The notes beneath the pieces were generated by a model. The model saw only the letters and a list, made by a program, of their open reading frames with translations, was not told the origin of the DNA and did not search any database. Both the position numbers and the translations under genes were made by a program. Of a stretch of 64,000 bases of DNA, positions 28,964-34,486 are shown in pieces. The stretch is from Glaciozyma antarctica PI12 (Eukaryota > Basidiomycota > Microbotryomycetes > Kriegeriales > Camptobasidiaceae). The first letter of the stretch is position 1; the number at the start of each line of letters is the position of its first letter. Location of the stretch: assembly GCA_002917775.1 (NCBI GenBank), contig KZ627161.1, forward strand, positions 4,890-68,889, written 5' to 3'.

Positions 28964-29340
28964 ATGGCTTCTCGCACCCAGACCGTTCTCAAATCCCAAT
29001 CACTCGCTGAGGCGACTGCGTCCCTCGCGCTTCGCGGCTCCACCGTTGCGCTCAAGTCCACCGGCGTACTCGACAAGTACGCTCGATTTAAGGTGACACC
29101 TTTCATTGGGAGGAAGTACGACGACGTCCAGCTTGCGGAGCTTCTGCGAAGAGGATCGTCGAGCTCAACAAGGACGAAAGCGATGTCGTGCTCGAGTACC
29201 TCTACAAGATCGGCGCGGAGAACCACGACTTGCAGGTTCGATACACCTGGTCCAAGTGGTTGGATTATCTGAACGCGCTGCTTCAGGTGTACTTTGAGAG
29301 AGCGCGCCTAACGAGCGCTGCCGAGATCTCAGAACTTGGC
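28964..29340 (+). CDS. Small protein of unknown function (gene end uncertain)
   Basis: Starts MASRTQTVLKSQSLAEATAS and continues LDKYARFKVTPFIGRKYDDV. A one-base change of frame near 29142 then gives RIVELNKDESDVVLEYLYKI and GAENHDLQ, after which a GT donor at 29236 is followed by a likely intron. Both halves look coding, which argues for an indel. The DVVLEYLYK helix faintly recalls the C-terminal helix of ARPC5, but the rest does not match, so no assignment is made. A basic, Ser/Thr-rich start would suit a mitochondrial presequence. The end of the gene was not resolved; the SPE3-LYS9 start lies less than 200 bp beyond. Confidence 0.42.
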
Positions 29341-29517
29341 CCGCCATATTCTCAGCCGAACTCTCTCTCCTCTACTTCCTTCCCCTCTCCTCCCTACCTC
29401 CCCCGTACGTACCCGCTAGCCGGACCTGGACCTACTCCGCTCCATCTACGCGCCTCGGCACCTCCCACCCGCCCTGCGCCGCCGCTGACAGACTTTTCAA
29501 GCAGTCCTCAATCTTTC

Positions 29518-32500
29518 ATGGCTGTGGAGCTCTCTCACCCCCTTATCGTCGGTACGCTCCCTCCCGCCGCTCTCCCGATCGCTCGCTAACGATCAGAACA
29601 GACGGATGGTTCCGCGAGATCAGTGACCAGTGGGCGGGTAAGCAAGGACGGTCCTACTACACCCCCTCCTCGACCGACGCCCGCAAGCTGAGATTGGAGC
29701 GGGGAGCTAAGGCGACTTCCTGACTGCAGGTCAGGCGATGACGCTCCGCGTCAAGAAGATCCTTCACATGGAGAAGAGTCTCTACCAGGACGTCCTCGTC
29801 TTCGAGTCGACCAACCACGGAAACGTGCTCGTTCTCGATGGCGCTATTCAGTGCGTTGAGCGTGATGAGTTCTCGTAAGTCGCGCCTCAGGGTTACGTGG
29901 GTGGCAGGGAGGCGCAGAAGGGTGGGCATCTGGCAGCAGGAAGAGGGGGAGAGGCGTTCGAGGAGCTCGAAGGCGAGAGGGAGAGCGCAGGGGAGGAGGA
30001 GCTACGCCGGACGAGGTCTAGCTTCTCGCACTTTCAGAGTGCTCGAAAGACCGCTTTGGCTGGTGCGCTGAGCGGGGAGGTGGTGGTCTCGCTCCGCACA
30101 AGTTTCGGCTCAGCCCTGGTTGACACGAAGCTTGACGGCCTGCGAGATCCCGCTCTGAAGTACACGCCGGCAGATTCCTTGAGGAACTAGAGCAAGCCTC
30201 TGTCATCGTAGTGGCCGGCGGGATGGAGCGCACTCGACCGCAGCAGCAGCCGGCCACACGTCTCTCTCCTCGACCACCTCCCGACCATTCTAGCCCCCGT
30301 CAAAGAGCATCACTGACTCTCCCTCTTTCCACAGTTACCGCAAGTCGTCCTTTCTTGGATTTGAAGCGCCGACGACCTCGCACTAACCCTTCTCGCACTC
30401 GCAGAGGAGATGATCGCCCACCTTCCCCTCGCCTCCCACCCCAACCCCGTCTCCGTCCTCGTTATCGGTGGTGGAGATGGAGGAGTTCTCCGCGAGGTCC
30501 TCAAGCACCCTTCCGTCAAGTCGGCCGTCCTCTGCGACATTGACGAGGCCGTCCCCCGCGTCTCCAAGGCGTTCCTCCCTCACATGGCCGCTGGCTTCAA
30601 CGACCCTCGCGTGACGGTCCACATTGGCGATGGATTCAAGTTCCTCGACGACAAGAAGGCCGAGTTCGACGTCATCATCACCGACTCCTCCGACCCCGTC
30701 GGACCCGCGTCGTCCCTCTTCGAGAAGCCCTACTTCCAGCTCCTCAAGGAGTCCCTCAAGCCCGGAGGAAGCATCTCCACCCAGGGAGAGTGCATCTGGC
30801 TCCACCTTCCCCTCATCAACGACCTCATGACGATGACCCGCACGCTCTTCCCCGTCGCCGAGTTCGCCTACACCTCAATCCCCACCTACCCCTCCGGCAC
30901 GATTGGATTCGTCGTCTGCTGCCTCGACGAGACCCGCGACCTCCGCACTCCCCTCCGCAAGGTCGAGAACGTCCGTTACTGGAACGAGGAGATCCACCGC
31001 GCCTCCTTCATCCTCCCCGACTTCGCTCAGACCGTCGTTGATGCGTCGAAGAAGGTTGCTTCCGTCGCTGCCTCTTCCGCCGCCCCCAAGAAGGTTCTCC
31101 TCCTCGGTTCGGGCTTTGTCGCCCAGCCCGCGGCCGACTACATCCTCCGCCGCGCCGAGAACAGCCTTACCGTCGGTGCGCTATTTCGCTTCGCACGGTT
31201 TTCGACCATTTCACTGACTCTCACTTCCTCTCCACCATCTTCGCGCTCGCAGGATGCCGCACCCTCTCCACCGCCCAGTCCCTCGCCTCCTCCCTCTCCC
31301 GCAACGCCTCGGCCATCTCCGTCGACGTCTCGGACGAGGCTTCCCTTGACGCCGCCGTCAAGGAGCACGACCTCATCATCTCCCTCATCCCCTACACGTT
31401 CCACGCCAACGTCATCAAGTCGGCCATTAAGTTCAAGAAGAACGTCGTTACCACCTCCTACGTTAGCGAGGCCATGCAGGCTCTCGAGCCTGCTTGCATC
31501 GAGGCTGGCATCACCGTGATGAACGAGATCGGTTTGGACCCTGGACTTGATCACCTTTAATATGCGGCGTCTCCCTTGTCGTCTTTTCGTCGCTAACTCT
31601 GTCTCCTTCTTTACCGCAGTCAAGACCATCGACGAGGTGCACCAGGCTGGTGGACAGGTGCGTTCCTCGCTCCTCTCCTGGCAGACCCGTTTGCAGATGC
31701 GTCCTTTCCGCAGGTCACTGGCTTCATCTCGTACTGCGGTGGACTCCCCGCGCCCGAGTCGGCCGACAACCCTCTGGGTGCGTCGTTCTCACCGTTCCTG
31801 GCGCGAGCTTGCTCTGATCGTCTGTGATTCCTGCAGGATACAAGTTCTCCTGGTCCGCCCGCGGTGTTCTCCTTGCTCTCGGAAACTCGGCCCGTCTCTA
31901 CTCCAAGGGCGAGCTCGTCGAGATTGACGGCAAGGACCTCATGGCTCACGCCAACCCTTACTTTATCAACCCCGCCCTCGTACGTTCTTCTGCGCCGCAC
32001 TCGCGAGCCTTGCTAAGTCGTTGGAACAGGCCTTCGTCGCCTACCCCAACCGCGACTCTACCACCTTCAAGGAGAAGTACCAGATCCCCGAGGCCGAGAC
32101 TGTCGTTCGTGGAACCCTCCGCTACCAGGGCTTCCCCGCTTTCATCAAGGCGCTCGTCGAGCTTGGATTCCTCAACGAGACCGCGCAGGCGTGGCTCGCT
32201 CCTGGCGCGTCGCTCGCATGGGTGCGTTCTTTTCAGCTCTTTTGGAGAGGAGGAATGCTGATGAGGCTTCGCAGAACGAGGTGACCGCCAAGGCTATCGG
32301 CGCCACCGACTCCTCTGAGGCGTGAGTCCTGCGTTCGCCATCGTTTCGTCTCAAATCTGACGCTCGCCCTCCTCGCAGCGCCCTCCTCGCCCGCGTCTCC
32401 GCTCTCGTCAAGTTCTCCTCTCCCGCCGAGGAGCAGCGCATCGTCTCTGGCCTCCGCTGGATCGGTCTCTTCTCCGCCGACAAGGCTACCCCTCGCGGCA

Positions 32501-32965
32501 ACCTTCTCGACACTCTTTGCGCCACGCTCGAGGCCAAGATGCAGTACGAGGATGGAGAGCGCGACATGGTCATGCTCCAGCACAAGTTCGAGATCACGAA
32601 CAAGGATGGCAGCAAGGTACGTTTCCTCCCCTCCTTCGGCGTCGTTTACTGATGCGCGTGACGAGTAGGAAGTTCGCACGTCGACTCTCCTCGACTTTGG
32701 AGCTCCCATCGGATCTGGAACCGGTCCTTCGTCGATGGCCAAGCTCGTCGGAGTCCCTTGCGGAATCGCCGTTCAGCTTCTCCTCGACGGCAAGATCAGC
32801 AAGAAGGGTGTCCTCGCGCCTTGTACGTTCCTTTTACTTCGCTCTATCGATGGAAGCTGACGCAGTGGGGCAGACACGCGTGAGATCGTTGACCCTCTCC
32901 TCGTCGAGGTTGAGAAGGAGGGAATCACGATGGTCGAGAAGGTCGTCTCGAGGACCGCGGCTTAG
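29518..32965 (+). CDS. SPE3-LYS9: Chimeric spermidine synthase-saccharopine dehydrogenase
   Basis: Fourteen exons: 29518-29551, 29602-29637, 29730-29874, 30335-30339, 30405-31175, 31253-31559, 31615-31657, 31714-31777, 31837-31979, 32030-32221, 32275-32321, 32379-32616, 32669-32822, 32874-32965; 2271 nt, 756 residues. The N-terminal half is spermidine synthase: [67 protein letters not shown]. It moves aminopropyl from decarboxylated SAM to putrescine. The C-terminal half is saccharopine dehydrogenase (glutamate-forming): [17 protein letters not shown] (Rossmann), [29 protein letters not shown], the penultimate step of alpha-aminoadipate lysine synthesis. This fusion is documented in basidiomycetes such as Cryptococcus. 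Joining requires a 5-nt exon (30335-30339) and an intron with AT...AC ends (31560-31614). Confidence 0.93.
29875..30334 (+). other. Long intron (460 nt) within the spermidine synthase half
   Basis: Bounded by GTAAGT at 29875 and a strong CTGACTCTCCCTCTTTCCACAG 3' end. Most introns in this gene are 50-100 nt. I see no ORF or RNA fold inside that I can defend. Confidence 0.7.
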
Positions 32966-33352
32966 ACGCTTGCGTTTGAGTAAAAGTGGGGAGGGGGGGG
33001 AATACAGCTTCACCCATACACACATTGCACAGGCGCGTGTTCGGGTTCGCTGTTCGTTCGTCGCTGCTCTTCTCGCTGCTCTCGTTGGCGAGGGTGGCGA
33101 CTGGAAAGGGAAGAAGTCGGTGCTGTTTTCAGCGCCAGAGCTATGGGAGCTGCTCCGGTACAATCTCTGAGCGTCGTTCTCGCAGAGGGAGTGTGAAGGA
33201 GAAGACGAGCGGGAGGCGCGTCGACGAACGGGCGCGTCGCGCATTGGACTTCGGCTCTCAGCGCGTGTTCGTTGTTTGACCTCCTCTCGCCGTCAAGCTC
33301 AGCTTCCTCAGCTCCTTCGCCAGCCCTCATTCTCCCCCCAAGGCTCACCAGC
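32966..33352. other. Intergenic region, 387 bp
   Basis: 3' flank of SPE3-LYS9 followed by the upstream region of the BTB gene at 33353. No gene seen; begins with a G-rich tract. Confidence 0.5.
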
Positions 33353-34486
33353 ATGGACAGCGCAAACGCCAAACGACCGGCTGGAGACGAAGGGAGCGTT
33401 CCTGGATCGACCTCGAAGCGCTTCAAAGCGTCGGACGCGGACGTCGTGCTGATCTCGAGCGAGTACGTGTATTACCTTTCCTCCGAGCTGCGCAAGAGCG
33501 GAGCTGGGCGCGTAGAAGAGGAGGAGAACGAGCACCTTCAACCGAACACCTCAGCTGACGACCTCCGCTCGTTCGCAGCGGCATCAAGCACCGCGTTCAC
33601 CGCGCCAACCTCCTCTCCGCTTCTAAGTTCTGGCGCGACCTGTTTGAGATCGGCTCGGCGGGGAGGACGTCCCGGAGATTACGATGGGGGAGGACAGCGC
33701 GACGCTCGAATGGCTGCTTCAGTTCATCTACCCCGAGCCCGTGGTGCTGCCTGCTCCAGAATTCCCGAGGGACTGGCCACGGGTTTGTGCGCTGGACAAG
33801 TTTGAGGTGCGTCGGCGGCTGATGAGGAGGGAGCGCGGGACTGATCTGAGTCGGTGTTGTTTGCGCAGCTGTGGCGCGGGATCGGGGCGTACAAGGCTAG
33901 CTTCAGGTACCGGGTGATGAGCTTTTGACCGGGAAGTGCTCGCTGAGCGACGTGGCCAGGCTTCGCGATGGCTCCATCCACCGTCCCGCAATCGCCTACG
34001 CCTTCGCTCGCCACTTCAACCTCGTCGACCTCGTTTACGACGCTGCACAGGCGTGTTACAAGTCACAGCACAGGAATGTTTTTTCGCGTGTCGTGAAGGA
34101 CCTCGAAGAAGCTCGCAAGCACATCGACGTTTCGACTGAATCGACCCTCCTCCTCGTACGTAGTTTGTTCCGCACGCCTTTGTGAGCGGCTTCTCATCTT
34201 TGGCCGACAGCTCGGCTGGATTGGCACCAGCTTAGAGGCGCTGTGGCCCGCGCGACTAGGTTTTGCCAGGGACGTAGCCTTGCTTAACTCAGATTGCGCT
34301 GAGGACGTCCCTTGCCGACTCGACGCCGTACAAAGTGTCCTCTACATGGAACCTTCGAGCGGTGCACTGGAATACGACACAAGCAGCTGCGAAAACTGTA
34401 CAGACAAACTGTACGAGTATCGCGGCGACTTCAGCTCGTATTGCCATCAGCACATCCCCGTGTGTCCTTTCCCGTCGGCCCCCTAG
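33353..34486 (+). CDS. BTB/POZ-family protein (frame break near 33660-33663)
   Basis: Exons 33353-33462, 33579-33806, 33869-33906, 33960-34155, 34211-34486; about 282 residues. Exon 1 is MDSANAKRPAGDEG with a nuclear-type basic patch and ends FKASDADVVLISS. Exon 2 gives GIKHRVHRANLLSASKFWRD, then EDVPEITMGEDSATLEWLLQ and FIYPEPV with EFPRDWPRVCALDKFE: the BTB fold and its following helix. Later exons read HRPAIAYAFARHFNLVDLVY and a Cys-containing end (SCENCTDKLYEYRGDF). A G is missing from a G run at 33660-33663, shifting the frame within the BTB core; summed exons are one base short of a multiple of three. Close in sequence to the decayed gene at 1740, so it serves as the best guide to that gene's original structure. 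Confidence 0.66.

Follow-up and report, generated by a model that had tools for sequence, protein, structure and literature searches.

A predicted AT-AC intron in the LYS9 half of the SPE3-LYS9 fusion gene of Glaciozyma antarctica PI12

The SPE3-LYS9 fusion gene of Glaciozyma antarctica PI12 is predicted to contain a 55-nt spliceosomal intron with AT-AC termini at positions 31560-31614, which would be removed by the major (U2) spliceosome, a reading to which we assign a probability of roughly 0.83. The gene lies in a stretch of 64,000 nucleotides, in the following called the window, to which all positions refer unless stated otherwise; the genome from which it is taken comprises 20 Mb in 18 contigs. 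The prediction is supported by two results: no other join was found to restore a block common to 117 of 120 listed homologues, and small edits of the sequence, as far as tested, gave no GT-AG alternative.

Gene Model and Neighborhood

SPE3-LYS9 fusion genes are known from basidiomycetes, and the LYS9 enzyme catalyzes the penultimate step of lysine synthesis (PMC10051792). The same bifunctional fusion gene has been described from Flammulina filiformis, where five introns are reported, with GT and AG given for four of them, and the description of that gene makes no mention of AT-AC termini (PMC10051792). For G. antarctica, homology and splice signals were used to assemble the gene model manually (Table 1). 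The closest named LYS9 homologues among the matches listed, with 80-82% identity, come from Meredithblackwellia, Phenoliferia, Pseudohyphozyma, Leucosporidium and Microbotryomycetes sp. JL201. In addition to the AT-AC intron, the model holds 11 GT-AG introns and one GC-AG intron (30340-30404), making 13 in total. That the other exons of the gene close in frame, as stated in the initial annotation, is borne out for all 12 remaining introns of this hand-built model.

Table 1. Features of the SPE3-LYS9 gene and of the AT-AC junction, with positions in the window.
Feature	Position	Strand	Details	Basis
SPE3-LYS9 fusion gene	29518..32965	+	14 exons, 2271-nt CDS including stop, 756 aa	hand-built model; homologues
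LYS9 exon before the junction	31253..31559	+	ends CAC CTT TA (phase 2)	sequence; hand-built model
Predicted AT-AC intron	31560..31614	+	55 nt, ATATGC...GCTAAC...TTTAC	sole intron restoring DHLYA[VI]K
5' splice site (predicted)	31560..31565	+	ATATGC, +5 G; +4 T rare among local introns	sequence; local predicted introns
CGGCGT	31565..31570	+	donor place of the 5-nt-shifted 55-nt GT-AG intron (31565-31619), possibly a decayed donor	shares GCGT with commonest local donor GTGCGT
Candidate branch site	31592..31597	+	GCTAAC, branch A 31596, 18 nt before last intron base	sequence; local predicted introns
3' splice site (predicted)	31613..31614	+	AC	deletion scan
CGCAG	31615..31619	+	codes (TA)C GCA G(TC); also commonest local acceptor pentamer	deletion scan; local introns
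Next LYS9 exon	31615..31657	+	begins CGCAGTCAAGACC	hand-built model

Two further observations concern the gene and its surroundings. The GC-AG intron and an adjoining microexon were absent from the initial annotation. The microexon, TTACC (5 nt, 30335-30339), is placed between a 460-nt GT-AG intron and the 65-nt GC-AG intron, whose donor reads GCAAGT, and yields DEFSYQEM; its site is unique within 29906-30390 for the pattern AG, then NTAYC, then GT or GC. Immediately upstream of SPE3-LYS9, an open frame extends from position 28964 and starts with MASRTQTVLKSQSLAEATASLALRGS, presumably reminiscent of the ARPC5 subunit of Arp2/3.

A Single Interval Restores the DHLYAVK Block

When the interval 31560-31614 is left out, the exon join GAT CAC CTT TA / C GCA GTC AAG reads DHLYAVK. 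The block DHLYA[VI] is shared by 117 of the listed homologues, the best 120 of 3871 matches, and the exceptions, DHLSA in two sequences and DHVWA in one, were substitutions only, with no gap or insert in the block. In a deletion scan, all stretches of 30-159 nt starting anywhere from 31453 to 31617 were removed one at a time, whatever their termini, and restoration of DHLYA[VI]K without a stop was required. Exactly one solution was obtained, namely 31560-31614 with the termini AT and AC, so that the protein's need for an intron at this place and the uniqueness of the interval are directly observed. With the base composition of 29001-34000, a given pair of positions would carry AT and AC by chance with a probability of about 0.0022. 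The initial annotation had claimed that the HLYAVKT block is restored only by this intron; at the level of the sequence this observation holds, with both termini forced by the protein.

Other joins disrupt the protein. As had been proposed, the CGCAG acceptor (31619) yields the wrong frame; paired with the donor at 31560, it leads to a stop. The earlier statement that no GT donor fits was confirmed as well, since the sole GT-AG join reaching KTIDEVH stop-free (31532-31619) deletes 11 protein letters. Five GC-AG joins also reach KTIDEVH without a stop, all of them deleting or replacing more than this GT-AG join. Retention of the interval ends the protein at once after DHL, at an in-frame TAA.

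Sequence Errors and Integrity of LYS9

An assembly or sequencing error could in principle mimic such a situation, with the true sequence holding a GT-AG intron. In line with this explanation, CCGCAG at 31619 has the look of a perfect acceptor for this region, and the GCGT of GTGCGT, the donor most often seen locally, recurs in CGGCGT at 31565. The region 31540-31630 was therefore subjected to an edit scan comprising every single substitution, every 1-nt insertion and every deletion of 1-6 nt (1183 edits, some of which yield identical sequence; 1184 variants together with the unedited sequence), and to a second scan of 7280 insertions of 2-3 nt. A planted GT-AG intron, used as positive control, was recovered. 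With none of the 1183 small edits and none of the 7280 insertions in this region could DHLYA[VI]K be restored by a GT-AG or GC-AG intron, which agrees with the argument against a simple indel made in the first place. Several coordinated differences, or one larger than the edits covered, would be needed for a canonical rescue, and changing 31560 to G alone gives GT-AC, not GT-AG. An error of this kind thus appears unlikely.

The same scan bears on the idea that the interval is coding or retained, in which case it would form an 18-residue insert and the sequence would contain a 1-nt error. In 41 of the 1184 variants the frame was open to KTIDEVH without any intron, several of these also altering the upstream block. 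However, the 120 listed homologues are all without an insert in the block, and the interval has the length of an intron as well as a branch site. We consider a coding insert extremely improbable.

It was also considered that the strain carries a broken allele, with the in-frame TAA formed from the first bases of the interval, and either does without LYS9 function or makes a locally altered variant. The termination after DHL upon retention is consistent with such a lesion, and since a GT-AG or GC-AG join becomes available in 32 of the 1184 variants, leaving 2-5 residues between DHL and KTIDEVH with the block altered, a recent lesion in this one genome is conceivable. In contrast, no frameshift interrupts the downstream exons, whose identity to six homologues (76-81%) is as high as that among the homologues themselves. 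More precisely, identity to these homologues (P0001, P0003-P0007) amounted to 74.6-86.3% for the SPE3 part, and LYS9 gave 78.6-88.1% on the upstream side of the junction and 76.1-81.4% on the downstream side; when homologue P0003 was compared with the other five, the corresponding values for LYS9 were 77.8-87.3% and 76.1-84.0%. The somewhat lower conservation downstream of the junction is found in both comparisons and thus reflects the enzyme itself, not a peculiarity of this genome. As the identity pattern equals that among homologues, LYS9 bears no sign of decay and, judged by its conservation, the gene looks functional. Moreover, a 728-nt LYS9 piece gave a single DNA match in the whole genome (a diverged copy could escape such a search), and the enzyme acts in the penultimate step of lysine synthesis, as cited above (PMC10051792). 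A broken allele is accordingly a rather unlikely explanation. With the downstream part of LYS9 conserved, 31560-31614 would have to be removed in frame.

Intron Anatomy Compared to Local Introns

For comparison, 534 GT introns of up to 90 nt were predicted ab initio from about 216 kb of the contig that carries the gene; these introns are unverified, and the predictor itself favored short introns and branch motifs. The predicted AT-AC intron matches their median length of 56 nt closely, although this median reflects the length preference assumed by the predictor. Its distance from branch site to intron end falls at the upper quartile of the 289 of the 534 predicted introns that contain CTRAC, a motif favored by the predictor (quartiles 13-18 nt, 5-95% range 10-25 nt). 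These elements of the anatomy can be read from the DNA directly. The initial annotation had described the GCTAAC branch as being like that of the neighboring introns. The motif is indeed present, but the likeness is limited: among the 12 other introns of the gene only five show CTAAC or CTGAC at a usable distance, as read by eye in their 32-nt tails.

Two features speak against the use of AT-AC. Firstly, CGCAG, which is the commonest acceptor pentamer of the predicted introns (125 of 534), follows five nucleotides past the AC and contains the first AG after the branch. Secondly, the donor interior ATGC of ATATGC ranks in the lowest 6% of the 534 predicted GT introns, where GTATGC does not occur and GTATGT occurs once, the commonest predicted donors being GTGCGT (129), GTACGT (68) and GTGAGT (61).

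In addition, a census was carried out with a simple ab initio gene finder, for which about 216 kb of this contig served as training sequence. With canonical termini only, SPE3-LYS9 was split in two at 31560-31614. When AT-AC was allowed, the intron was placed exactly at 31560-31614 and the two halves of the gene were joined, with two downstream introns and the gene start still misplaced. Across the census AT-AC was used 13 times with gains of up to 11.9, the intron at 31560-31614 gaining 7.5. Of 253 other non-canonical terminal pairs, 70 were tested as decoys, and several of them gained more than 20; at or near 31560-31614, the gains of AT-AG (10.2), CG-GC (10.4) and CG-GT (10.9) exceeded that of AT-AC. 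These higher decoy scores at or near the interval probably stem from the short next exon. Since AT-AC was not favored over other terminal pairs, the case for the intron rests on homology and not on the census.

Type of Spliceosome

Actual splicing of the interval, and which spliceosome acts on it, is what we infer from these features. In the proposed mechanism, U1 and U6 would recognise ATATGC despite the mismatch at its first base, U2 would pair with GCTAAC, and the pair of first A and last C would steer the second step to the AC at 31614 instead of the CGCAG five bases further on. For the efficiency of AT-AC termini in budding yeast, Parker and Siliciano 1993 is reportedly the source. In Saccharomyces cerevisiae, which is without a U12 spliceosome, only GT-AG is spliced more efficiently than AT-AC (PMC6726248). 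As AT-AC works there without that machinery, the ordinary spliceosome could use ATATGC together with GCTAAC. The 5' splice site has a G at +5, the base expected of U2-type AT-AC introns (PMC2831892). An A at +4 or a T at +6 would improve such sites (PMC2831892); the intron described here has a T at +4 and a C at +6.

The initial annotation had left room for both types of spliceosome, pointing to a possible U2-type AT-AC intron and to a resemblance of the 5' end to ATATCC of U12 introns. What may be said for a U12-type intron removed by a minor spliceosome is that the interval begins with ATAT, ends with AC and has a CTAAC branch. Also to be considered is Cutaneotrichosporon oleaginosum, which is a basidiomycete. 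Minor-spliceosome RNA genes have been reported from this fungus (PMC7072748). However, the resemblance at the 5' end turned out to be superficial: the U12 rule is RTATCCTT, with T tolerated for no more than one of the Cs at +5/+6 (PMC2846911), and ATATGCGG with its G at +5 fails this rule. Surveys do not report convincing minor introns for Basidiomycota (PMC10639083, PMC2846911), and according to a review, minor spliceosomal components are absent from basidiomycetes (PMC8199999). Removal by a minor spliceosome is hence highly improbable, and the U2-type reading is favored by the G at +5, the CTAAC branch and the failure of the U12 rule.

The genome was also searched for spliceosomal RNAs and U12 introns. 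The strict U12-intron consensus pattern had no match in the genome. U6atac, U12, U11 and U4atac were not found there, U12 and U6atac also being sought by pattern; this counts little against a minor spliceosome, as U2, included as control, was likewise missed in the genome with RF00004, a 31-nt pattern (up to three mismatches) and a 20-nt pattern (up to two mismatches). Because U2 must exist and yet escaped the search, the negative results for the minor RNAs were set aside. A split U2 gene is one possibility to explain the missed U2, incomplete sequence another; in Rhodotorula hasegawae the U2 gene is known to carry an mRNA-type intron, according to a title cited in PMC2586383. U6 was found twice in the genome, at L001 1501-1579 (minus strand) and L002 1501-1621 (plus strand). 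Both U6 genes have an identical core, and the copy at L001 fits the U6 model only to position 77, its 3' part being off consensus.

Relation to Known AT-AC Introns

U2-type AT-AC introns are already documented in fungi, and the case in SPE3-LYS9 is uncommon, not unprecedented. One of the fungi with AT-AC introns, Ganoderma lingzhi, belongs to a different subphylum. In this basidiomycete, 13 AT-AC introns (0.014%) are reported, one of them confirmed by Sanger sequencing, GT-AC (49) and AT-AG (21) being commoner (PMC11590231). As in the present case, missing the intron broke the gene model there; the gene is a different one, and the intron is proven by transcripts, whereas here it is predicted from DNA (PMC11590231). 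Among annotated fungal introns, AT-AC accounts for 0.019% (PMC7072748). In S. cerevisiae, the SUT635 protointron and an alternative intron of RPL30 have AT-AC termini and are likewise removed without a U12 spliceosome (PMC6726248). In contrast to these cases of a protointron or of alternative use, the intron of SPE3-LYS9 is apparently constitutive in a coding gene. Intron 21 of human SCN4A and the set of sodium-channel introns of U2-type (type II) share with it the AT-AC termini, the G at +5 and a 5' end without U12 consensus (PMC2831892). Differing from those introns, the present one is 55 nt long, lies in a yeast gene, has T at +4 and C at +6 and is followed by a canonical-looking AG 5 nt past the AC. 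In the part of the literature covered, no report was found of AT-AC introns in Rhodotorula or Rhodosporidium toruloides or of a minor spliceosome or U12 in Pucciniomycotina. A scan of viral contigs yielded no DNA of relatives for comparison.

Possible History and Significance

With regard to the origin of the intron, it may be speculated that the intron once had GT-AG termini, when its 55 nt spanned 31565-31619, that it then shifted upstream by five bases with its length unchanged, and that the two 3' ends, five bases apart, now tune SPE3 against LYS9. Such an older intron would be of phase 1 and end in CCGCAG/TC, its 5' end reading CGGCGT today. A slide of 5 nt would be neutral for the protein, as the acceptor CGCAG encodes the exon bases (TA)C GCA G. 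Intron slides are regarded as very rare (PMC10639083), and we hold the combined scenario of slide and tuning to be very unlikely. If it were true, use of the AC would give the full SPE3-LYS9 protein, use of CGCAG or retention would truncate LYS9 and leave SPE3 intact, and splicing could thereby tune spermidine synthase against saccharopine reductase.

Irrespective of its history, the predicted U2-type AT-AC intron belongs to a group of rare natural tests of the rule that links the first and the last base of an intron in the spliceosome. As the gene is conserved and selectable and a strong canonical-looking acceptor lies five bases downstream, the choice between AC and AG would be measurable by growth without lysine. 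Furthermore, annotation pipelines limited to GT-AG and GC-AG would mis-model genes of this sort.
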